Made by a program: the position numbers and the translations under genes. From the NCBI GenBank assembly GCA_963681505.1, contig OY811991.1:1494574-1558573 (forward strand): DNA of 64,000 nucleotides, read 5' to 3'. The stretch is from Eunapius fragilis. Its lineage: Eukaryota > Porifera > Demospongiae > Spongillida > Spongillidae. The notes beneath the pieces were generated by a model. That model made no database searches and was not told the origin of the DNA. It saw only the letters and a program-made list of their open reading frames with translations. Positions 5,808 to 49,660 of the stretch are shown one piece after another. Each line of letters starts with the position of its first letter. The stretch's first letter is position 1.

Positions 5808-5823
5808 TGGTAGCAGAGAATGG
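5808..5823 (+). other. Primer-binding site, initiator-Met tRNA type
   Basis: TGGTAGCAGAGAATGG begins two bases after the 5' LTR. It complements the 3' end of animal initiator methionine tRNA at 15 of 16 positions (from general knowledge of that tRNA). The gag start ATG at 5820 lies inside it. Confidence 0.8.
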
Positions 5824-6665
5824 AGCCTCAGCGACATATTAGCCTACCGAGTTGTTTTTCGCACGGGAACTTCGCCGACTGGTTGGAGCGCTTTGAGATT
5901 TGTGCGGCCGCGAACGCATGGCAGGAGGATACGATGGCCTTGAAACTTCCCACGCTGCGTGAAGGGGAAGCTCTTGTCGCGTGGTTGGGGATTTCTGCGG
6001 ATACAAGAACAAAATACGCTGCTACGAAGCAAGCCCTCACAAACGCGTTAAAGCCTACGGAGTTCTCAGCTTTCGCTGAATTTCAATCGCGCAAACTACG
6101 CCCTGGCGAGACGGTTCACATGTATCTACATCATCTCAAGCGACTCCTAGATGCAGCTATGCCGGAACTGGAAGAAGATAGCAAGAACAAAATACTGTTC
6201 CAGCAATTCTTAGCGGGTGTTCCTGAGGAATGCAGTCGCGTTTTGCGAACAAATCCTGACATCACGACCATCGATGCCGCAGTTACGAGAGCCAAGCTCC
6301 TCTTAACCGTATCAGTGGAGAAGTCCGCGTTGTCGGTTGCCGCAGTCACAGACACAGATACGTGTCCTGAAGTACGAGCCTTGCAAAACAGCGTCCAGTA
6401 TCTCACAGAGCAAATGTCAACCTTGATGGAGAAACTTCAAGAACACACATTTACTGCTGCCGTTCAGCCCCCGACTTCTGTTTCTGTCAGATGCTATAAT
6501 TGTAACCGCCCTGGACACCTATCGCGGAACTGCAGACAGCCAAGACGTCAGCCAGTGTGTTACAGCTGCAATCAACCTGGACATGTTGCAAGAGATTGTC
6601 AGCATCAGGGAAATGGACTGGGAATGACCACTTCAAGGGCCACAGGTCATTCTGCTCGTGTCTAG
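5820..6665 (+). CDS. gag: Gag polyprotein of the Gypsy element
   Basis: Gag forms the virus-like particle and packages element RNA. The 281-residue protein starts at the ATG overlapping the primer-binding site. Residues about 1-190 form the capsid-like region, with FADWLERFEICAAANAW and a retrotransposon-gag-type helical stretch around residues 60-120. Two CCHC zinc knuckles lie near residues 224-262 (CYNCNRPGHLSRNC and CYSCNQPGHVARDC). Its last 109 bases overlap pol, which is in the -1 frame. Length and order fit Ty3-type elements, and no internal stop is seen. Confidence 0.93.
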   Translation: MEPQRHISLPSCFSHGNFADWLERFEICAAANAWQEDTMALKLPTLREGEALVAWLGISADTRTKYAATKQALTNALKPTEFSAFAEFQSRKLRPGETVHMYLHHLKRLLDAAMPELEEDSKNKILFQQFLAGVPEECSRVLRTNPDITTIDAAVTRAKLLLTVSVEKSALSVAAVTDTDTCPEVRALQNSVQYLTEQMSTLMEKLQEHTFTAAVQPPTSVSVRCYNCNRPGHLSRNCRQPRRQPVCYSCNQPGHVARDCQHQGNGLGMTTSRATGHSARV

Positions 6666-9600
6666 GGGCCCAAGAATTTATCACTGCCGTTTCGAGTGAG
6701 CATGTACCCATCATTGAAGGAAAGCTGAATGCTAGCAATGTAAAAATTATGGTAGATTCAGGTTCATCCGTTTCCTTAGTAGACAAGGCGTACCTTCCTT
6801 CGGCGTGTTTAATCAGAAGAAGACAACAGTCGCTTCGTACAGCAGATGGACACGGGATGAGTATAGTTGGAATAGCCAGGCTTATGGTGCAATTGGGGTC
6901 TTATACAACTGAACACGAACTCCTGGTAGCTGAACACTTGTTAATGCCTGTTATTCTGGGAGTGGACTTCCTTTCTAAGCACGCTGTCACAGTGGTTTTT
7001 GATCAGAGCCTAGTATACATACGAATTGGAAAGGAAGTCATCCATACAGTTAGCAGGCAGGACAAGGCCAATATTTGCTATGCCGTTTCTACCAGGAGTA
7101 ATCCAGAGGAAAATGATGGGGTGGATGAATGTGCTGTACCAAGATTTGGTGAAACGCCATCATATGACATACCATCATGCCCAGCAGAACTGCAGGCCGT
7201 GGTTGACGAGTACAGGCAACTTTTTTCAACAGTTCCTGGTTTCACAGATCTTGCTCACCATACCATTCCTACAGCTAACAACCCTCCAGTCCCTGTTCCT
7301 CCGCGTCGCATACCAGCCCAGTACAGAGAGGAAATAGAATGTCAATTGCAGGAGATGCTAGATCGCAACATCATCAGAGTGAGCAGCAGTCCATGGCTAG
7401 CACCTGCAGTGTACGTGCCCAAGAAAAGTGGTGAACTTAGAATTTGCATTGACTACAGGGAGCTGAACAAGAGGACAATGAAAGATGCATATCCACTTCC
7501 ACTACCTGATGAAGTACAAGACAGGCTTGCGGGGGCCTCCATATTCTCAAAACTGGATCTGCAATCAGGTTACTGGCAGCTTCCAGTGCAAGAAGAAGAT
7601 CGTTTGAAGACAGCATTTTGTCCAGGCCCAGGCATGGGACTGTATGAGTTTTGTAGGATGCCCTTTGGTGTTACCGGTGGACCGAGTTCTTTTCAGCGGC
7701 TAATGGATAAAGTGCTTCATGGCCTTTCCTTTGTCACCAGCTACATAGACGATGTTCTAATTCACTCCAGTTCTATGGAACTTCACCAATCCCATCTACG
7801 TCTTGTGTTCAATCGCTTAGCGAAGGCAGGCCTGACATTGAGGGGTTCAAAGTGTAAAATTGGCCTTGACAAGGTGCAATACTTGGGTCATATCTTCTCC
7901 AAAAATGGTATGGCTCCAGATACAGACAAGATCGCTGTGGTGCAGAACTGGCCAACACCAACAGACGTCACAGAGGTTCGGCAGTTCCTGGGGTTGGCAT
8001 CATACTATCGACGATATGTGAAAAACTTTGCAGATATTGCAGCTCCTCTTCATCATCTCACACAAAAAGCAGTGGAGTTCAATTGGGAGGAGAACTGTCA
8101 GCGATCATTTCAGGTGCTGAAAGATGCATTGACTCAAGCGCCTGTCTTATGCTATCCCTGCTTCAAGAAGGGATTCACCCTACAGACAGATGCCAGTGCG
8201 GTGGGGATAGGAGCAGTGCTGGAGCAGGATGGCCACGTGATTGCTTATGCCAGCCGCAGTCTCACCTCACCTGAAAGACAGTACAGTTTCATCGAAAGGG
8301 AATGCCTGGCTGTTGTCTTTGCAGTCAAACACTTCAGGCACTACTTACTGGGACGACCATTCAGCCTACACACTGATCATCAGCCACTACAGTGGCTTTC
8401 TGCTCAGAAGATGGAGGGCAGGTTGTGCAGATGGGCTCTTGCTCTTCAAGAGTTTGATTTCGAGATCAAATACAGGCGAGGATCATCAAATGCCAATGCA
8501 GATGCTCTCTCCCGTGTACCTGCAATACAAGTAGAAACAAGTGAAATATGCTCTGCTACACTGATAACCCCAGAACTAACCACACGCAGGATCCAAGAAG
8601 AACAACAGAGGGACGCTGTACTGCAGCAAGTAATCCAACACCTTACATCACAGAACAGTACATCCAAGCCAAACTGGAAGCAGTTTCCACTAAAGCGTTA
8701 CTCTCAGCTACTGAAGCAGTTACATCTGGTTGATGGTGTCCTGTGTCGCAGATTTGTTCCAGGTCCATTAGAAGAAACTATCACTGTTCCGGTGATGCCC
8801 ACTTCACTTCAGGAAGTGGCCCTCCACAGCTGCCATGACATCATAAGTGCAGGTCATCAAGGCACTGAAAAGACCCTAGACAGATTGAAGCGGATGGCCT
8901 ATTGGGTTGGAATGGCAAAGGCAACAGAGCTGTACTGTCGGAGTTGTAATGTGTGTCAGCAATCGAAACTTCCAATGCCACTAGCAGTACCTATGACTAA
9001 TGTTCCAATAGGTCGACCTTGGCAAATGTTAGCTGTTGATGTTTTGGAAGTTCCAATGTCTGGTCATGGAAATCGATATCTGCTGGTACTCCAAGATTAT
9101 TTCACCAAGTGGGCTGAAGCAGTACCTATGCCTGACCAAACAGCGGAAAGGATAGCTCGAGCACTGATTGATATCTTCTCTCGCTTTGGCATCCCTGAGA
9201 TCCTTCACTCTGATCAAGGAAGGAATTTTGAGAGCACAATCTTGAAGAAAACCTGTGCAGCATTTGGCATTGTCAAGTCACGAACTACTTCATATCATCC
9301 ACAAGGAGATGGTATGGTGGAACGTCTTAACAGAACTCTGTTGCAGCTGTTAAGAGCCTATGTTCAACAGCAGTCTGATTGGGAATGCCAGCTTCCACTC
9401 CTGCTCTATGCCTATCGTACGGCTCGTCACACATCAACCCACCTGAGCCCGTTTTTACTGCTAATGGGAAGAGAACCTGTGCTTCCAATCATGCCATCAC
9501 TGGCGGGAGATGATGGGAAGGGTCACGATCCACACAGTTATGAACATACCCTGACAGTCAGATTGGCAGAGCTGAGGGACCTGGTGGAGTGCCATATCAC

Positions 9601-10003
9601 ACAGGAAGCACAACGGCAGAAAGCGTTCTATGACAGCACAACTAAAAGCAGAACCTTCAATGTTGGAGATGCTGTCTGGCTACATGTGCCAACAGCTGGC
9701 AAGCTGGATGCGAGATGGGAAGGAGGATGGACTGTGAAGGAGGTGCTGTCCCCAGTAAACGTTGCAGTTGAACACACCACGACAGCAAGGACTCGTGTGG
9801 TGCATGTTAACAGACTCCAGCAACGTATTGTTAGAGGAGAGGTTGAGGCACATGGTGAAGATCATGATCAACATGGTGTACCAGTAGCTGACTGGGAAGC
9901 ACCTCGCATCGAACACTTCATCCTTCCACCTCAACAAAAGCAGCAAGCTGAAGTCGGAAGGCGCTACCCTCAACGTGTTCGGCACCCAGTGTTGAGATAC
10001 TAA
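6557..10003 (+). CDS. pol: Pol polyprotein of the Gypsy element (PR-RT-RNaseH-IN)
   Basis: The open frame is listed from 6557, but the start residues there are not real; entry is expected by -1 frameshifting near 6608. In order, I see an aspartic protease motif MVDSGSSVSLV (residue about 65), reverse transcriptase with FSKLDLQSGYWQLPV and the catalytic YIDDVLIHS (about 390), RNase H beginning TLQTDASAVGIGAVLEQDG, and integrase with an HHCC zinc site (HQGTEKTL, CRSCNVCQQ). The integrase core shows the three acidic positions in AVDVLEVP, HSDQGRNFES and DGMVERLNRTL. RT followed directly by RNase H and then integrase is the Ty3/Gypsy order. The TAA stop is at 10001-10003. All catalytic residues checked are present, so the enzyme looks functional. 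Confidence 0.95.
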   Translation: MLQLQSTWTCCKRLSASGKWTGNDHFKGHRSFCSCLGAQEFITAVSSEHVPIIEGKLNASNVKIMVDSGSSVSLVDKAYLPSACLIRRRQQSLRTADGHGMSIVGIARLMVQLGSYTTEHELLVAEHLLMPVILGVDFLSKHAVTVVFDQSLVYIRIGKEVIHTVSRQDKANICYAVSTRSNPEENDGVDECAVPRFGETPSYDIPSCPAELQAVVDEYRQLFSTVPGFTDLAHHTIPTANNPPVPVPPRRIPAQYREEIECQLQEMLDRNIIRVSSSPWLAPAVYVPKKSGELRICIDYRELNKRTMKDAYPLPLPDEVQDRLAGASIFSKLDLQSGYWQLPVQEEDRLKTAFCPGPGMGLYEFCRMPFGVTGGPSSFQRLMDKVLHGLSFVTSYIDDVLIHSSSMELHQSHLRLVFNRLAKAGLTLRGSKCKIGLDKVQYLGHIFSKNGMAPDTDKIAVVQNWPTPTDVTEVRQFLGLASYYRRYVKNFADIAAPLHHLTQKAVEFNWEENCQRSFQVLKDALTQAPVLCYPCFKKGFTLQTDASAVGIGAVLEQDGHVIAYASRSLTSPERQYSFIERECLAVVFAVKHFRHYLLGRPFSLHTDHQPLQWLSAQKMEGRLCRWALALQEFDFEIKYRRGSSNANADALSRVPAIQVETSEICSATLITPELTTRRIQEEQQRDAVLQQVIQHLTSQNSTSKPNWKQFPLKRYSQLLKQLHLVDGVLCRRFVPGPLEETITVPVMPTSLQEVALHSCHDIISAGHQGTEKTLDRLKRMAYWVGMAKATELYCRSCNVCQQSKLPMPLAVPMTNVPIGRPWQMLAVDVLEVPMSGHGNRYLLVLQDYFTKWAEAVPMPDQTAERIARALIDIFSRFGIPEILHSDQGRNFESTILKKTCAAFGIVKSRTTSYHPQGDGMVERLNRTLLQLLRAYVQQQSDWECQLPLLLYAYRTARHTSTHLSPFLLLMGREPVLPIMPSLAGDDGKGHDPHSYEHTLTVRLAELRDLVECHITQEAQRQKAFYDSTTKSRTFNVGDAVWLHVPTAGKLDARWEGGWTVKEVLSPVNVAVEHTTTARTRVVHVNRLQQRIVRGEVEAHGEDHDQHGVPVADWEAPRIEHFILPPQQKQQAEVGRRYPQRVRHPVLRY
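6608..6614 (+). promoter_or_regulatory. Candidate -1 ribosomal frameshift heptamer
   Basis: GGGAAAT in the gag frame reads G GGA AAT, which fits the X XXY YYZ slippery pattern. It lies inside the gag/pol overlap, and a -1 slip leads straight into the pol frame. No downstream pseudoknot was worked out. Confidence 0.6.
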
Positions 10004-21588: not shown

Positions 21589-24500
21589 ATGCTGAAGGAA
21601 CTGGCTCTTCTTGTGACCCTGCTGGCCTTGTTCGCTGATGCCCGTCCCCGGCCCTCCAAGGTTTGGGAGCTAGCTATGTGGTGACGTCATATAACAGCAC
21701 CCCTCACAGCTGAAGGAAACTGTTGAGATGAGCGATGAGGTCGAGGAAAACAGCGACTCATTGACTAACCGCGACGACACTCTTGAGGGTAAGGACTGGG
21801 CATTATGCAATTTGGGACAGATTTCTCCATTGTAACATAATAGTATAATGTATATAAAAATGCCTCCGCCTGAATTGCTATAACAAACTTCCGAACGATT
21901 ATAGCTATCACGTCCGATTTTCAACACTTCATACTACACCATTTCTCTATTGTAAAAAACATTTTGGGGTCTTGCGTTGACGTGCTCATTTTCGCGCTCG
22001 ATTCGCGCCAATGATTTAGGCCGCTCAGATTATATCAATGGCGCTATAATCAGGCGGGAAAAGTCACGACGATTGTTCAACTGTATCTCCTAACAGTATA
22101 CCGATGACATGAAATTAACGAACTGAAAAATGGCCTCAAAACCGTATTTTGATCTTCTATGGCGGGTTTGAACCCCGTGGGGTATCGGCATTGCAATACT
22201 GGCATGGAGTTAACACAAGACCCCAAAATGCATTTTACCATAGAGGAATGGTGTAGTATGAAGTGTTGAAAATAGGACGTTGATGGCTATAATCGTTCGG
22301 AAGGTTTAGCGATTCAGGTGTAAGGCATTTTAGTAATTGCTACTAATATATCACGTGGGGCCCGCTGGCTTCCCTCCCGATGTCCGCTTATTGATTATCT
22401 CGTCCTCAGCATTATGAAGCATTTGGAAAAGAAAAAAAAAAACCACCACCTCAGTATGTAAGCTGGGAAGAAAAAAAAAAACCAAATTCATAAAACCATC
22501 CTCAATTGTGAAACCGTTGAAACTACATTCAGTTTCATCAAGAAATAGGTGATTATCGTCTACAATTTGTATACGTTAATGTATTTCAAGACATGATGCA
22601 CTTAACTTTATACCGATTTGAACTCACGTTAGAAAATTGATCGGTTGCTACGTAGAGTTTTCAGTTCCTTTTTCATTGCACAGAAAGATGGGCCGACAGG
22701 ATAGCCAACAAAGTTAGGTTAACGTCTTAAAAAAACACTAATGTGTTTTCCCCGCCTATTTCGAAGGTAAAATCACCTACCCTTCTGAAGCGGAACACTT
22801 CTTAATGATCACACAGTTAAAGTTCAACACAGCCAATTTTCTACACATTCGAATTAATTAAATCGGCTACCGATCTTACTTCATTCACTAATTTCAATCA
22901 ATTTCTCGGATATAAATTTCTTCCGCCTCTTAGTGAATCACGTAAGATCGGTAGCCGATTTAATTCAAATGTGTAGAAAATTAGCCGTGTATGCAACTCT
23001 GAAACCTAGTTTAATTTCCCTATTCCACCAATTTATACCGTGATTACAAGCCGCGGCTTCTATTCAGGACACATTTGTACCCGCATTTAAAAAATTTACA
23101 GGTTCTTTCACTTGCGTAGTAGAGTTTGCGGACATGTTCGCTCTACTCGTGTTCCGATTGATTCTTTACTCGGGTCTGTTCATCCAACTGTAGCAGGTCA
23201 AAGTAGCGTACAAATGTGTCCTGTATAGAAGTCGTGGCTTGTAATCAAGGAAAAACGGTATGTACTGACATTGCGTCATCAATAATGACGTAAAACGAAA
23301 ACAATTCGATGATGTAAGAAGCGCGTGACGTCAATTGCAAATCCTCTAACATTCTGCAGAAATGATAACCAGTTATTTGAGAGCGAAGAGTGCTGGAAGT
23401 TTGAGTGCAATGGTTAGAGTTTATCCAATCACGTGACCATTCTAATTGCAATTGTGCCTACATATTCCTTGTCACCATGGATACTACTATGAACAATGCA
23501 GTGTGTAAGTGTCAATGATGTTGCATTTCCCAATGCACCTTAACATGCCTACTTATTATCCTTGTCACTATGGATACTATTATGAACAATGCAGGATGTA
23601 AGTATCAATGATGTTGCATTTTCCATTGCACCTTAACATGCCTACTTATTCCTTGTCGCCATGGATACTATTATGAACAATGCAGCCTGTAAGTATCAAT
23701 GATGTTGCATTTCCCTTTGCACCTTAACATGCCTACTTATTTTCCTTGTCACTATGGATACTATTATGAACAATGCAGGGAGTAAGTATCAATGATGTTG
23801 CATTTCCCATTGCACCTTAACATGCCTACTTATTCCTTGTCACCATGGATACTATTATGAACAATGCAGTGTGTAAGTATCAATGATGTTGTATTTCCCA
23901 TTGCACCTTAACATGCCTACTTATTCCTTGTCGCCATGGATACTATTATGAACAATGCAGCCTGTAAGTATCAATGATGTTGCATTTCCCATTGCACCTT
24001 AACATGCCTACTTATTTTCCTTGTCACTATGGATACTATTATGAACAATGCAGGGAGTAAGTATCAATGATGTTGCATTTTCCATTGCACCTTAACATGC
24101 CTACTTATTCCTTGTCACCATGGATACTATTATGAACAATGCAGTGTGTAAGTATCAATGATGTTGTATTTCCCATTGCACCTTAACATGCCTACTTATT
24201 CCTTGTCACCATGGATACTATTATGAACAATGTAGATTGTAAGAATTAGTGATGTTGCATTTCCCATTGCACCTTAACAGGCCTACTTATTCCTTGTTGC
24301 CATGGATACTATTATGAACAATGCAGTGTGTAAGTGTCAATGATGTTGCATTTCCCATTGCACCTTAACATGCCTACTTATTCCTTGTCACCATGGATAC
24401 TATTATGAACAATGCAGTCAGTAAGTATCAATGATGTTGCATTTCCCATTGCTCCTTTGCATGCCTACTTATTACTTGTCACCACTGGAAACTATTATGA

Positions 24501-25015
24501 ACAATGCAGTGGGTAAGTATCAATGATGTTGCATTTCCCATTGCACCTTGACATGTCTACTTATTTTCCTTGGCTCCGTGGATACTATTATTTACAATGC
24601 AGCGTGTAAGTATCAATGATGTTGCATTTCCCATTGCATGTTAACATGCCTACTTATTCCTTGTCACCATGGATGCTATTATGAACAATGCAGGGAGTAA
24701 GTATCAATGATGCTGCATTTCTTAATGTATTTATTTATATATTTTCATCATGGACACTAAAATGAATAATGCAGAAATGAGAGGTAAGTATGTATGAATG
24801 ACACTATCTTATAATTAGGTTTATATGATATAACTTGGCAATAATGTCATGCATAGTGAACGCTTCTTCATCATGATTTCACCATGACAACCAAATTGAT
24901 GCTAAAGTATACATTATATCTGTAGTGACATTTATTCCAAACAGGTACTGGACACACTGAAGGAAACTTTTGGACACAATATGGCTTTCTGCTGCTGCTG
25001 CTGCTAGATATGTAG
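21589..25015 (+). CDS. Small secreted-protein gene with a microexon-array intron
   Basis: Exon 1 (21589-21660) starts at ATG and encodes a signal peptide: hydrophobic LALLVTLLALFADA, then RPRPSK. A 49-bp intron follows. Exon 2 (21710-21788) encodes an acidic stretch (LKETVEMSDEVEENSDSL) and ends in phase 1 with G before GTAAGG. The last exon (24945-25015) starts in the matching phase (GT ACT GGA) and encodes GTGHTEGNFWTQYGF plus a run of six Leu, then TAG. Joined directly, these exons give about 73 residues: signal peptide, acidic middle, hydrophobic tail. The 3.16-kb intron between exons 2 and 3 holds three foldback elements and an array of tandem candidate microexons. I do not recognise the family. 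The exon joins are inferred from splice motifs and matching phases; a transcript would settle them. Confidence 0.6.
21857..22336. mobile_element. Foldback (MITE-like) element 1 in the large intron
   Basis: Arms of about 120 bp are inverted: 21858-21978 pairs with 22213-22334 (shared blocks AACGATTATAGC and TTTTGGGGTCTTG). No coding region is seen inside. Confidence 0.75.
22833..22985. mobile_element. Foldback element 2
   Basis: AATTTTCTACACATT..AATCGGCTACCGATCTTAC at 22838-22888 pairs with its reverse complement at 22944-22985. Confidence 0.75.
23036..23262. mobile_element. Foldback element 3
   Basis: TACCGTGATTACAAGCC..GGACACATTTGTAC pairs with GTACAAATGTGTCC..GGCTTGTAATC, ending in CGGTA. 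Arms are about 45 bp. Confidence 0.75.
23455..24790 (+). repeat. Tandem array of ~91-bp units, each an AG/3 nt/GTAAGT candidate microexon
   Basis: Fourteen units of 91-93 bp each contain GAACAATGCAG, three variable bases, then GTAAGTAT. The triplets are at 23502, 23595, 23686, 23779, 23870, 23961, 24054, 24145, 24236, 24327, 24418, 24510, 24603 and 24694: TGT, GAT, CCT, GGA, TGT, CCT, GGA, TGT, ATT, TGT, TCA, TGG, CGT, GGA. A fifteenth, diverged unit has 9 bases (24775-24783) before GTAAGTATG. In each typical unit the AG before the triplet is the only AG apart from the one in GTAAG, so no other acceptor is available; a CCTTAAC branch-point-like motif lies about 50 bases upstream. Exons 2 and 3 of the host gene are in phase 1, so a triplet can be added without changing the frame. 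Splicing itself is not shown. Confidence 0.85.
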
Positions 25016-25739: not shown

Positions 25740-27485
25740 TTAAAAAAAGAGAAATAATAAGACAATAAATTTAATCCATGAATGAGGCCAGAGGAGCACC
25801 ATCTTCAAACCCCAGCCCACTTCTCCATTTGGTGCGGGATCCTCTAAGACAGAGGCTCACGCTCGAACCCCTGCAAAAGCAAGCCGTGATCTGACATAGC
25901 TGCTGGTAATGGAATAGGCTTTGTCCCACTTGGAAGACAGAGCAGTGGCCATGTGCTTTAGGAAGTGACTAGCCTCTTTGTGTAGTAGTCGTCCACAGAA
26001 AGGACAAATGGGGTGAAGGTGCCTCTTCTGTCTTCAACTGCCTTTTTGTACATTCTCTTCTTCTCCAATGAGCTTGACTCAAGAATGGCATTAGGTGCTC
26101 GATGGCAGTGTGATGGGGCGTCAGTGTCTATGACACGGACATCAAACAACGCCTCCACCTGTGGTTGCCAAACACCTCTGATTCCCAGGTCAAGCCTTAA
26201 TCCTGGATCACTTGAGGTGGCAGTAGCCTCATTGACAATAGGCTCCTTTATAACCTGGGGCCACACCTGACTGGCAAGGTCACCAAGGCAGTCACGGATC
26301 TCATTGTGGCGTAGTATAACAAGTCCCCCCTTCTTACAGTCTAGGGCATGTTGGAGGGTGAAATCAGCTCCACAACCATCACATTTGGCTGGCAGATTAG
26401 ATGGATGTCGCAAATAGTGCAGAGCTAGGCCATCTCTGAACTGTACAGGAGCCAAATCAAAGTGGCAACTTTGGAGTGGCAGAGTCGTCAACCAGCTGGA
26501 CGTTTTGCCCTCAACCACCCTCATGATTGCACGTTGTCTGCCTGGTGAAAGAGTTGCAAGAATGGCATCTAGTTTCTGTTTGGAAACCTCGTCAAGTGCT
26601 TTTTGCGTCTCATATCTTGCCTTTCTGATTGCATCCAGGTGACAGGCAGAACTAAATTCACCACATCCCTTAATAGCTTCTACCACAACTTTGGTACCCT
26701 GGGTAGAGGTGTGGTAGGACGATGATGCAGTTTCAGTAGGATTATTGATCCCCAAGCCAGCAAAACGAGTTGGTAAAGAAAACAGTTTACATTCAGCATC
26801 TGACAAATCTCCTTCAAACAATGCTGCGTAGAAAGCCTTTAAAATCGCATCTTGCAGTGGGACAAAAGCACCTCCACAGTTGTGCATGACTCGCTGCAGG
26901 TATGACCATTCACACTGAAGGGATTTGGAGAGAGCAGTATAAGCGGCTTGCGGTGACTTGGTAGCTGCCTTGGAGAGTTTCACAACACAATCTACCCACA
27001 TTGCAACCTTCTTCCTCACAAAATCATCTGCTATCATGCAGTCTCCAATAACACCCCCAAGAAAGCGATGTCCGTTCACTATCTGCACACCCAAATCACC
27101 AAAGACTATCCTGGCCTCATCTTCAAATTGAGGGGTAACAATCAGACAGCTTTTCTTGGGCTCAGGAAAGTATCCATAAGCTGGGCCTTGCTCAGCCAAC
27201 TGATCATACCATGAGCGAACCTCCTTGATGTTTCCAATGCAAGCTGAGTCATCTGCATACCAGGTCTGCAACCTGTTCTCTTTGACCTTCAGTGACTTGA
27301 CAAGTGGTAATAGTGCAACTGCATAGATGAGCATGGATAGAGGATCACCTTGAGTAACACCTTCCTTACTGAATAGACATTCATCAGATCCTCTTATGAC
27401 AAGCCTAGCAAATCCTCTATACGTGTTGAACAAAAAACGGCTGCATCTAGGCCATAACACGCGAGCATTCCACAAGGCAGCAACT
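25740..27485 (-). pseudogene. Non-LTR retrotransposon reverse transcriptase with CCHC and RLE-like C-terminus, 5'-truncated
   Basis: The main open frame (25958-27475, 505 residues) begins inside the RT domain. It shows FNTYRGFARLVIRG, GVTQGDPLSM and the catalytic YADD near residue 75. Further on come a zinc knuckle CDGCGADFTLQHALDC (about 375) and a restriction-like-endonuclease shape, RLDLGIRGVW..ALFDVRVID (about 430-455). A stop follows KRLVTS; the protein continues below it (FLKHMATALSSKWDKAYS) and, after a frame change, reads LCLRGSRTKWRSGLG, the family tail also seen at 29.85 kb. A TGA closes the frame a few codons above 27475, marking the 5' truncation. The C-terminal stop and frameshift make this an inactive copy. 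The zinc knuckle plus RLE layout suggests an early-branching non-LTR clade. Confidence 0.85.
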
Positions 27486-41200: not shown

Positions 41201-44200
41201 CTGTGCTTGTGAAGGCTGGGATGTGTTCCTTCCTTGATTTTGCAGACTAATGGATAATGTGTATGTAGCTAGCGGAGACAATAATGATGGGACATGGAGC
41301 ATGTATGTAGTGGAGGATATGGGACATGAGTGGCAATGGGATCTGAGCATGAATGTAGTGGAGGATATGGGACATGAGTGGCAATGGGATCTGAGCATGT
41401 ATGAAGTGGAGGATATGGGACATGAGTGGCAATGGGATCTGAACATGTATGTAGTGGAGGATATGGGACATAAGTGGCCATGAGACGTGAGCATGTATGT
41501 AGTGGGGGATTATGGGACATGAGTGGCCATGGGACGTGAGCATGTGTGTAGTGGACGATAAAGGACATGAGCATGTAGTGGTGGCCATTGGATATGAGCA
41601 TGTAGAGGAGGCAATAAGACATGAGCATGTAGTGTTGCTGCATGTGTACATTTTTGACAGGAAAAGGTTGCGCTGTTGCAAAGATATGTTATTTTGTGTA
41701 ATAGATAAAACTTAACCCTTTTGGTCGAAAATTGTCCATTATAAATTCACAAGGATCTAAATGTGACCAAGAGCAACAGTATGGGTAACAAGTCCTTACG
41801 TCTCATAGTTTCCACTACATGGCCCTTACTACCTGCTCACATCTCGTGGGCTCCACTAGATGCACATGTACCTGATTTTATATTTGATTTGTACACGTGT
41901 TTTTGCTTTTGTTAGAGAGATGTGAGGGTTCATGTAGAATTACATGCTCAAGATCAGAAACAAGATTGCAGAAGGCTTGAACAGAATGTAATTGGACAGT
42001 ATAGTTACACTTCTGGGTTGCCTGCAATTTGACACTACAGAAGTGTACATTTCACTCCCCATGGAACAAAATTTAAAATTCGCCAGTGACCTATGACCTC
42101 CTTTGGTGTTCAGGGAAAGTAACTGCTTGATTTTTAAAATACCCCACATGATTGAATAGAATTGCTCATTTAATGCACGCATGAATTTGATTTATACCAT
42201 AACACTTCTAGTGCCTTGGTCCTTTGAATATCATCCACAATGCATTGCAGTTGGGTTTTGTTTCTCAGCTCATTGTGTTTATCTACTTTGTCTCAAAGGG
42301 GGGGTAAGGAAGAGAATGAATCAAATTAATTGTTTGGTAATTCAGGACAAAAGTGCTTTATAAAATGTGCACAAATGAAACACCAGCTTGCAACCATTTG
42401 CCTTTACACAGATTAGGGTTAGGGTTAGGGTAATCACAATTCTATTGAATTCAGACTGTGTATATTATATGTAGAGCATGTCCAAAATTCATTGAATCAA
42501 ACATATGTACTGAACTTCAGATTGTTGAGTCCTCCACTCTCTGGACCCATTAGGACTCTGATTATATGGCAGTGTTCCATGCCTGTCATTCATAGACAGG
42601 CTCTAAAATTTGGAAACTCACTTGTGCCCAAAGAATGTGACAATTGTTCACTATCTTCTGTTTGCATAGCTTCAAGAACTTAAAACGATTCTTGTGGCTT
42701 AATGTTTAATCTCCAGGGAAAAATCCTTATTTAAGGATGTCATTATCCTTAAATAAGGATCATCTTTTACATTGCATATTTTTGCTAACCAAGTAAGCAA
42801 GATAAAATAAATGCTATTAGTCAATTGCATACCGATTAGCCTCCATAACAAACTTTAAATGATGTCAATATGATCAATGTCCATGTGGTAAAACAGGGAG
42901 GAAGTGGCACATCCTTATTTAAGGATTGACACCATCCTTAATTAAGGATCACAACAGTAGAGATTATTGACCATAAAAAACCACAATAGTTTTAAAACTT
43001 TTGATTTTCTCTGATAGCCAGTTGATCCAGCTATACTCACAACCTGATTCGTCGAAGAAATAACTTGTGGTTAATAAATTATGCTTATTTACACCATAAC
43101 GCTTAAAAATTACATTTGTATAATGACGTGTACTGATGTAGATGCTTGCTTCTGTTCAAACGCCAGCATGGACGTACCCTAGCCTCACTGAAACCACGTG
43201 CACTGCCTGTGAGTGCTCTGCCGCCGCTCCATCGAACGGTGTGCTTTCTAGTTCTATCATTGAGTACAGTGCCATATACAATGGTGCATTGAAGGAGGGG
43301 GGGGGGGGGGTCGGGAGGTCTAGGAAGCATTGCCATTTGCCAATTGGCATACAATATGTGTTCGAGCTTAGTGTAGCTTATAGTTCCAATTAATTAGACT
43401 CCAGGAGACCACGCCATTGCCTAAGCCTACTGTTGCCGTCGTTGTCACTGTCATTTGACGAATCATGCAGTGCTGCCGCTTTGGTCACCTGGGCCTACAT
43501 GTATGTCATCCATCCGTACTGAGGAACTACATCTGTCGCTTTCTGTGGCTCCCTCGGTATCTAAGCAGGGTTACTTAGCTTGACGCTTTCGAGTGTATGC
43601 AATCGCTTCGATCTTTGGAAGTATACTGCATGACAGGTACGTGAGCGTAGATTGTTGAAGCCGTGGATATTGTTCCACAGATCCACCTGTCAGTGTATAT
43701 TCTACTCCTAGAGCTACCAGAAGCCTGTCCTTCCTTGCCATACGTCGCTTTGAGTTAATTTGCTCACTACTATATCGCCAGCAGCAAATGGCGGTTTCGC
43801 CGTATTTACACTGTAATACCGGTTTTTGAGCATTTTAATCGTGGCAGTATCACTGATCTGCATGATCTTGAATCTAGTGAATCACTAATATAAAACAAAG
43901 CATCTTGAAAGAGTACATCATTCTTTTAGAAAGTGGTCATCATCCGTATTTAAGGATGGCCATCCTTAAATAAGGATTGCGGGAGATTAAATATTAAGCT
44001 ATAAGGTTTGAGTAAAGTTTACCTATTTAGCGCCATGTATGAGGTATCATAAATGGATGTATAGTATATGTGGTTATAGGTGGCCACAGTTAAATAACAT
44101 GTTCAAAATCAAGTGCAAGACGACTGATCATTTAATTCATAAAGTGAATTAAACAGAAATAATTGTGCTGATTTCAGTTACCTTGGTGGAGGGAATACAG

Positions 44201-48399: not shown

Positions 48400-49660
48400 G
48401 TAAAGGGGGGGGTGGGGTGGGGGGGGTGGCAGGGGTTCCAGCTGCTTACAGTTGGTACATGGGGAAGGGGGGTCCAACTGCTTACAGTTGGCACATGGGG
48501 AAGGGGGGTTCAACTGCTTACAGTTAGTACATGGGGAAGGGGGGTCCAACTGCTTACAGTTGGTACATGGGGAAGGGGGGTCCAACTGCTTACAGTTGGT
48601 ACATGGGGAAGGGGGGTCCAACTGCTTACAGTGGGTACATGGGGGAGGGGGTCCAACTGCTTACAGTGGGTACATGGGGGAGGGGGTTCAACTGCTTACA
48701 GTGGGTACATGGGGAAGGGGGTCCAACTGCTTACAGTGGGGAGGGGGTCCAAATGCTTACAGTGGGTACATGGGGAGGGGGTCCAAATGCTTACAGTGGG
48801 TACATGGGTAAGGGTCCAACTGCTTACAGTGGGTACATGGGGGAGGGGATCCAACTGCTTACAGTGGGTACATGGGGGAGGGGATCCAACTGCGTACAGT
48901 GGGTACATGGGGGCAGGGGTCCAGCTGCTTACAGTGGGCACATGGGGGCAGGGGTCCAGCTACTTACAGTGGGTACATGGGGGCAGGGTCCAACTGCTTA
49001 CAGTGGGGAGGGGATCCAACTGCTTACAGTGGGTACATGGGGAAGGGGGTCCAACTGCTTACAGTGGGTACATGGAGGAGGGGGGTCCAAATGCTTACAG
49101 TGGGTACATGGGGAGGGGGTCCAAATGCTTGCAAGTGGGTACATAGGGAAGGAGGGTCCAGCTGCTTACAGTGGGTACTTGGGGAAGGGGGTCCAACTGC
49201 TTACAGTGGGTACATGGGGGCAGGGGTCCAGCTGCTTACAGTGGGTACATGGGGGCAGGGGTCCAGCAGCATACAGTGGGTACATGGGGGCAGGGGCTCA
49301 GCTGCTTGCAAGTGGGTACATGGGGGCAGGGGTCCAGCTGCTTACATTTACAGTGGGTACACGGGGGAGGGGGTCCAGCTTCTTACAGTGGGTACATGGG
49401 GGCAGTGGGTCCAGCTTCTTACACTTACAGGGGACCAGCTGCTTACAGTGGGTACATGGGGGCAGGGGTCCAGCTGCTTACAGTGGGTACATGGGGGCAG
49501 GGGTTCCAGCTGCTTACAGTGGGTACATGGGGGCAGGGGTTCCAGCTACTTACAGTGGGTACATGGGGGCAGGGGTTGCAGCTGCTTACAGTGGGTACAT
49601 GGGGGGCAGGATCCAGGTGCTTACAGTGGGTACATGTACATGGTGGCAGGGAGTCTAGCT
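48400..49660 (+). repeat. G-rich ~35-bp minisatellite, about 35 units
   Basis: Units run GGTACATGGGG(A/G)AGGGGGTCC followed by AACTGCTTACAGT(G/T). Two subfamilies are seen: a GGAAGGGGGG type to the left and a GGGCAGGGGTCCAGCTGC type to the right. All three + frames stay open over long distances (up to 416 codons) because the unit lacks stops; no coding signal supports these frames. G runs on one strand could form G-quadruplexes. Confidence 0.95.

Follow-up and report, generated by a model that had tools for sequence, protein, structure and literature searches.

Among the systems compared, the closest counterparts of the locus analysed here are the micro-exon genes (MEGs) of Schistosoma, which encode secreted proteins, are assembled from many very short and mostly frame-neutral exons, and evolve fast. 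An MEG comprises 10-20 exons, which measure 6-81 bp and mostly 15 bp, and introns of up to ~5 kb; the abstract of the same paper gives 3-81 bp (PMC10526429). The subject of this work is a gene in a 64,000-nucleotide stretch of the freshwater sponge Eunapius fragilis (assembly GCA_963681505.1, contig OY811991.1, positions 1,494,574 to 1,558,573; hereafter the window), in which exons for a signal peptide and a pro-region precede fourteen tandem units that each offer a candidate exon of three nucleotides. Judged from its sequence, this array very probably encodes a mature secreted peptide, with a separate 3-nt exon for each amino acid. Like MEGs, the family to which the gene belongs has a signal peptide followed by a series of very short frame-neutral exons, but it lacks their size plan (mostly 6-81 bp exons, commonly 15 bp, and long introns). 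Unlike MEGs, the sponge arrays contain up to 52 consecutive one-codon exons, separated by introns of ~87 nt that are copies of one another. We believe that this architecture is categorically new, or at minimum a variant of micro-exon genes.

Other described systems share single aspects of this organisation. Conotoxin-type families combine a conserved signal peptide and pro-region with a hypervariable, often cysteine-rich mature region. By description, the sponge family resembles them in precursor plan and is set apart by its mature region, which in conotoxin-type precursors is encoded on ordinary exons. Bicycle genes have small exons, yet these are much longer than one codon and are not tandem copies, and in this they differ from the sponge family. 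What the two have in common is that both are fast-evolving and secreted, the bicycle genes of gall aphids being an effector family recognised by its gene structure (PMC9168663). Isolated ultra-short exons include the 3-bp exon of Drosophila hth and a single-nucleotide exon in Arabidopsis (PMC7392893, PMC4674806). These show that splicing can deal with exons of 1-3 nt, but they are single exceptions in ordinary genes and form no tandem coding array. The barrettides of Geodia barretti are also sponge peptides, held to be made by the sponge itself, and their transcripts have introns (PMC8713285); in a comparison by description only, the available part of that paper does not mention one-codon exons for them. 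No tandem one-codon coding array was found in the titles or abstract openings listed, with subscription papers and preprints mostly outside the search.

The array and gene model in the window

Tandem Repeats Finder reports one array at 23455-24721 (+) with a period of 91, 13.8 copies and 90% matches, together with periods of 184 and 275. By script, the array contains 14 AATG[C/T]AG-NNN-GTAAG sites, from 23502 to 24694, at a spacing of 91-93 bp, with the triplets TGT, GAT, CCT, GGA, TGT, CCT, GGA, TGT, ATT, TGT, TCA, TGG, CGT and GGA in that order. Both methods confirm what the initial annotation of this DNA had claimed, namely fourteen head-to-tail units of 91-93 bp, each with a 3-nt exon between an acceptor and a donor; the ATGCAG acceptor and GTAAGT donor that it assigned to them each hold in 13 of the 14 units and fail at 24236, where ATGTAG and GTAAGA are found. 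When [CT]AG and GTAAGT were allowed to lie n bases apart on the plus strand of the window, n=3 occurred 13 times, n=2 twice, n=9 once and every other n from 0 to 12 never, an excess of AG-NNN-GTAAGT spacing far above chance. The same 14 sites, and none elsewhere on either strand of the window, were recovered with a unit matrix that ignores the triplet and whose training set was drawn from this family, the window's own units among them.

The exon list of the initial annotation was incomplete, as it overlooked a coding exon of 53 nt (23360-23412) and did not recognise the stop-bearing 9-nt terminal exon as coding. The gene model that includes them is as follows.

21589-21660, plus strand: exon 1 (72 nt) with the start codon, coding for the signal peptide MLKELALLVTLLALFADARPRPSK, and with a GTTTGG donor; the same exon occurs at 40 genome places
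21661-21709, plus strand: intron 1, 49 nt, GT...AG
21710-21788, plus strand: exon 2 (79 nt), coding for the pro-region and ending in phase 1 (as in 4 other scripted genes), donor GTAAGG
21789-23359, plus strand: intron 2, 1571 nt, contains inverted repeats resembling small transposon insertions
23360-23412, plus strand: exon 3, 53 nt (3n+2), MITSYLRAKSAGSLSAM, which brings the frame back to phase 0, donor GTTAGA; a 3n+2-nt exon is present in 9/9 scripted genes
23502-23504, plus strand: one-codon exon 1, TGT (Cys)
23595-23597, plus strand: one-codon exon 2, GAT (Asp)
23686-23688, plus strand: one-codon exon 3, CCT (Pro)
23779-23781, plus strand: one-codon exon 4, GGA (Gly)
23870-23872, plus strand: one-codon exon 5, TGT (Cys)
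23961-23963, plus strand: one-codon exon 6, CCT (Pro)
24054-24056, plus strand: one-codon exon 7, GGA (Gly)
24145-24147, plus strand: one-codon exon 8, TGT (Cys)
24236-24238, plus strand: one-codon exon 9, ATT (Ile), acceptor ATGTAG, donor GTAAGA
24327-24329, plus strand: one-codon exon 10, TGT (Cys)
24418-24420, plus strand: one-codon exon 11, TCA (Ser)
24510-24512, plus strand: one-codon exon 12, TGG (Trp)
24603-24605, plus strand: one-codon exon 13, CGT (Arg)
24694-24696, plus strand: one-codon exon 14, GGA (Gly)
24775-24783, plus strand: terminal 9-nt exon AAATGAGAG (AAA TGA GAG), Lys codon followed by the stop TGA at 24778-24780
24945-25013, plus strand: first part of the last exon, taken to be 3' untranslated sequence; 7 genome matches including that of the window

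Joined together, exons 1-3, the 14 one-codon exons and the terminal exon give a single open frame of 83 residues on 18 coding exons, which begins with a leader judged by eye to be hydrophobic and ends in CDPGCPGCICSWRGK and the stop. Behind exon 3 the window codons lie in phase 0 and read C D P G C P G C I C S W R G. Since the triplets are in phase 0 behind an exon of 3n+2 nt, their full inclusion yields a coherent secreted peptide. We rejected a reading of the triplets in phase 1 straight after exon 2, which meets a stop across units 1 and 2 (G/TG T/GA); exon 3 restores phase 0.

In our model, ordinary exons encode the conserved signal peptide and the pro-region; 14 one-codon exons would come next, and then a short exon for Lys and the stop. 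Through intron definition, with mostly strong GTAAGT donors, short introns and AG acceptors, each intron would be removed and the codons joined into CDPGCPGCICSWRGK; we infer that splicing includes most or all of them. The product would be a secreted, often disulfide-bonded peptide, presumably of a defence, venom-like or antimicrobial sort. The family would grow and vary by tandem duplication of codon-plus-intron units, with codons that change fast and intron flanks that stay near one consensus.

Intron 2 carries inverted repeats at 21885-22306, 22827-22990 and 23033-23255, in total 5 arm pairs with arms of 26-72 nt that are 88-94% complementary. They look like small transposon insertions resembling miniature inverted-repeat transposable elements.

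Coding evidence across the gene family

When at most 3 mismatches are allowed, the 33-base unit pattern ATGCAGNNNGTAAGTATCAATGATGTTGCATTT matches the 219-Mb genome at 592 places, of which 200 are forward and 392 reverse, and its reversed control matches at none. Exon-1 DNA has at least 40 genome matches on twelve contigs (40 of 51 candidates scored), of which 30 were taken as loci. The sequence analysed was merged to 35 segments totalling 243 kb, the window included. At least two unit sites lie downstream of exon 1 in 26 of the 30 loci, five of these having only two or three; the other four have none within ~1.57 kb downstream, a stretch possibly too short to reach an array. Loci outside the window are referred to below by labels such as C11 or C21:1330. 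In two places family genes stand opposed to each other. Those at C12:3124835-3129918 and C12:3136329-3141412, ~9 kb apart, have identical codons and site positions and are a recent inverted duplication; a similar pair lies on C20 near 2.13 and 2.15 Mb.

The triplets avoid stop codons in a single phase. With a matrix blind to the triplet, 527 sites scored above threshold in the 35 segments; they hold 48 of the 64 possible triplets and no stops where 14.4 would be expected from position-wise base frequencies (P 5e-7). As related units are not independent, near-copies were collapsed to 328 non-redundant sites, which again hold no stops (10.3 expected, P 3e-5). Over 427 adjacent pairs, phases +1 and +2 contain 4 stops (5.8 expected) and 54 stops (47.2 expected), respectively; given that these phases carry stops at the expected rate, phase 0 alone has been purged. 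The spacer between acceptor and donor, each scored separately at 413 sites, is 3 nt in 404, 6 nt in four, 9 nt in three, and 4 nt and 5 nt in one each, and the 6-nt and 9-nt spacers consist of two or three sense codons. Across all arrays, the third base of the one-codon exons is T at 71% of sites. NNT codons are never stops, so that two of their three positions are free to mutate without nonsense.

The surrounding exon plan, worked out by eye in individual genes before a script checked it, is also shared. Exons 1 and 2 together end in phase 1 in all five scripted genes, and the next coding exon is of 3n+2 nt in nine of nine (53, 53, 53, 71, 53, 53, 44, 50 and 23 nt). The gene termed C22 G1 departs from this plan in that its exon 2 ends in phase 0 and its triplets follow directly, hence the frame is consistent there too. 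AAA followed by TGA or TAA closes all six scripted arrays of the window's kind, the window's own among them; the C22, C3, C19, C13 and C12 subfamilies have different array ends, seen by eye only. By eye, one C7 array starts with an exon of 18 nt, and thus some mature residues are not on an exon of their own.

The introns were examined in a chain model in which exon length was restricted to 3, 6 or 9 nt and the introns were chosen to begin with GT and end with AG. The 452 array introns of at most 125 nt have a median length of 87 nt (range 59-105); those of the window are 88-90 nt and near-identical to each other. A GTAAGT donor is present in 388 of the 452, a loose YTNAY motif in 429 and CTTAAC in 126. 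In 122 of the 126 bearing CTTAAC, no AG intervenes between this branch-like motif and the acceptor, as the initial annotation had said of typical units. The array introns thus have the donor (GTAAGT-type), branch-like motif and AG acceptor of U2-type spliceosomal introns. U12-type introns, hinted at by CCTTAAC, were set aside in view of the GTAAGT donors and of the distance of ~50 nt between the adenosine of CTTAAC and the AG. Array acceptors are mostly TGCAG-like, with GCAG ending 339 of the 452 introns. We take the UGC beside them to be reminiscent of the animal microexon enhancer.

Read as one codon per exon, the mature regions differ widely between genes:

window: CDPGCPGCICSWRG-K, then stop
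C11: IPFDPSKVINLDPSFDPKNFVFCPPDKPDPSKVINFDKFYKFCPPDKFDDCC-K, then stop
C12: PGGRGTPTCPGDCPDYCCLG
C21:1330: DYLPPYLPP(RG)DDPQEYLPPYGDYGDPQLDDPGQ-K, then stop
C22 G1: CSW-QPR-CKRPCRIV-TVAVPLIYPPVKLCCC, where the inner hyphens are intervals of ~160-180 nt that may contain a further unit

The C11 gene has 52 uninterrupted one-codon exons with internal repeats of peptide motifs. With full inclusion there are four cysteines in the window, C11 and C12 peptides, six in C22 G1 and none in C21:1189 and C21:1330.

Codons and flanks have diverged differently. Units were compared at 64 positions of the flanks, leaving out the core splice sites. Of 54 pairs without a difference there, 31 carry different triplets (none synonymous), and of 209 pairs with one difference, 163 do (four synonymous); such pairs are not independent, and the comparison gives no rate. 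When all 80 flanking bases are identical, the codon differs in 20 of 22 pairs between arrays and in only 3 of 20 pairs within one array, the latter being dominated by recent block copies. Units with identical flanks on C11 and C21 carry GTT, GAT, TGT, CGT, GGA or GCT. In part, identical flanks may reflect one consensus kept by selection for splicing and not recent copying. The likeness of introns between the same two codons, versus that of introns sharing neither, is 0.99 versus 0.89 in the window (2 and 76 pairs), 0.92 versus 0.84 in C11 (32 and 1016 pairs), 0.94 versus 0.89 in C21:1330 (18 and 364 pairs) and 0.95 versus 0.80 in C20 (18 and 537 pairs). As introns between identical codon pairs are more alike in all four arrays tested, codons and introns have been duplicated together in blocks. 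Furthermore, three C22 paralogues have intron insertions and deletions with most codons in register, R/K, R/H and Y/H replacements, and two synonymous changes.

Relatives are found in another freshwater sponge. A protein search with the window precursor (E up to 10) gave 23 matches, of which all eight named ones are from Ephydatia muelleri and 15 are unnamed. In its protein P0001 (Em0009g88a), exons 1, 2 and 3 are joined at the protein level as we have modelled them. P0006 ends in KVSITNVMLPNAP, which would fit AAG plus a unit-type intron that has been read through. P0005 and P0009-P0011 end in VR or VRMR directly behind the pro-region, as if a GTAAGA- or GTCAGA-type donor had been read through; at the matching place the C20 gene has GTCAGAATG. 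P0014 and P0007 match family genes of the E. fragilis genome over the part compared. A search with the C11 precursor returned four proteins, all among the matches of the window precursor and none with a mature region. Pfam gave no family for two precursors, and the PDB no match for one.

Taken together, the frame, the stop statistics, the spacer lengths, the terminal stop exon and the 40 exon-1 places support, at the level of sequence, the core proposal of the initial annotation that these are tandem one-codon microexons of differing content. Its label of cassettes fits less well: the array of 3-nt exons stands, but the triplets look mainly like ordinary coding exons of a mature peptide and less like optional cassettes, although some skipping may occur.

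Conflicting observations and rival explanations

Several observations weigh against one-codon coding exons. The two spacers of 4 and 5 nt are T runs (TTTT and TTTTT), both in the array at C13:3918045-3921077, which has few recognisable units and no exon 1 within 3.0 kb and is perhaps a decayed relic. For the gene of the C21:1164 array, the 33-nt exon 2 at C21:1169 would, by hand, end in phase 0, and no AAA-stop exon was found in the stretch read. The donor of exon 3 is weak (GTTAGA, GTTAGT or GTCAGA) in seven of nine genes. A further AG follows position 8 in 99 of the 452 array introns, one C22 copy has AA acceptors in two units, and in the 27 chains modelled, 51 of 503 intervals are longer than 125 nt and probably hide diverged or lost units. 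With exon 2 joined directly to the last exon, a short frame stays open in the window, whereas the corresponding part of C21:1330 contains a stop. With full inclusion, two gap-free arrays have an odd number of cysteines, namely C1:23.60 Mb (one) and C21:1164 (three); cysteine parity thus neither supports nor refutes full inclusion, and we dropped it as an argument. No spliced retrocopy was found with one 110-nt spliced query, whose seven genome matches all cover its 3' part only. Finally, the E. muelleri models contain no codon exons, and inclusion is therefore unproven by them; these models came from AUGUSTUS trained on RNA-seq (PMC7385117).

The explanation that we consider least credible is a minisatellite without a coding role that resembles splice sites by chance, one of the alternatives raised by the initial annotation. 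The array is indeed a genuine tandem repeat with units ~90% alike, and the one on C13 has no exon 1 nearby. However, a neutral repeat would not be expected to hold the triplet at 3 nt while its introns vary from 59 to 105 nt, nor to be free of stops at 527 sites in one phase only, and the same signal-peptide exon stands ahead of units at 26 of 30 loci; we therefore reject it on phase-specific stop avoidance, spacer spectrum and gene context. Recursive splicing, the other alternative offered at the outset, is scarcely more probable. Here the units would be ratchet sites, with zero-length or transient exons, that aid the removal of a long intron and leave no triplets in the mRNA. Ratchet sites have acceptor and donor juxtaposed, as the units do at a distance of three bases, but a transient 3-nt exon need not avoid stops in phase 0 alone, an AAA-stop at the array end is not required, and one unit every ~90 nt is far denser than the length of the intron needs. 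On its own, this mechanism leaves the purging of phase 0 unexplained.

The remaining two explanations concern how one-codon exons arose and how they are used. A mobile intron might have inserted itself between successive codons of a once-continuous peptide exon. Near-identical introns occur with introners and are what the arrays contain, and the donor of C22 G1 exon 2 begins with the same sequence. As an account of origin alone, we regard such an invasion as improbable: insertion every 3 nt would demand an unknown specificity, and the greater likeness of introns between identical codon pairs (in the window, two pairs only) points to block duplication. More plausible, if still doubtful, is a variant compatible with coding one-codon exons, in which the 3-nt exons are alternatively spliced and one gene yields many peptides. 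Nearly all array exons are whole codons, hence any subset would be translatable and fourteen units could give up to 2^14 forms; schistosome micro-exon genes do vary through alternative splicing (PMC10526429). The mostly strong GTAAGT donors (388 of 452) speak against skipping, and cysteine number is indecisive, being even in the window, C11, C12 and C22 G1 and odd in C1:23.60 Mb and C21:1164.

Given that array introns sit between whole codons, the gain, loss, duplication or skipping of a unit keeps the frame. One-codon coding exons could on this basis serve to diversify the peptides, each residue being an independent module between near-identical introns, with recombination adding, deleting, duplicating and shuffling codons and splicing perhaps choosing subsets; we judge the case for this to be evenly balanced. 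With such a system, an animal that lacks adaptive immunity would have its own dedicated means of making peptides hypervariable. If transcripts confirm the model, coding can go down to the limit of a single amino acid per exon and stay there across dozens of successive exons, which would challenge ideas on minimum exon size and exon definition, and the family would be a natural system in which single codons are the units of duplication, loss and selection. The model would also account for annotated relatives that end before the mature region and would reveal a large hidden family of sponge peptides.

Other features of the window

The remainder of the window contains several further features. 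An exon of a Piwi-type gene lies at 811-1293 (Pfam Piwi_N, E 2e-14). At 5820-10003 there is a retroelement of Gypsy type by domain content, in which an open reading frame with a zinc knuckle stands ahead of domains for protease, reverse transcriptase, RNase H and integrase. On the minus strand, an open reading frame of 505 aa at 25958-27475 had no Pfam match at 0.001 and looks by eye like the reverse transcriptase of a retrotransposon without long terminal repeats. Two unrelated minisatellites are present at 41297-41571 (48 bp period) and 48431-49636 (35 bp period).

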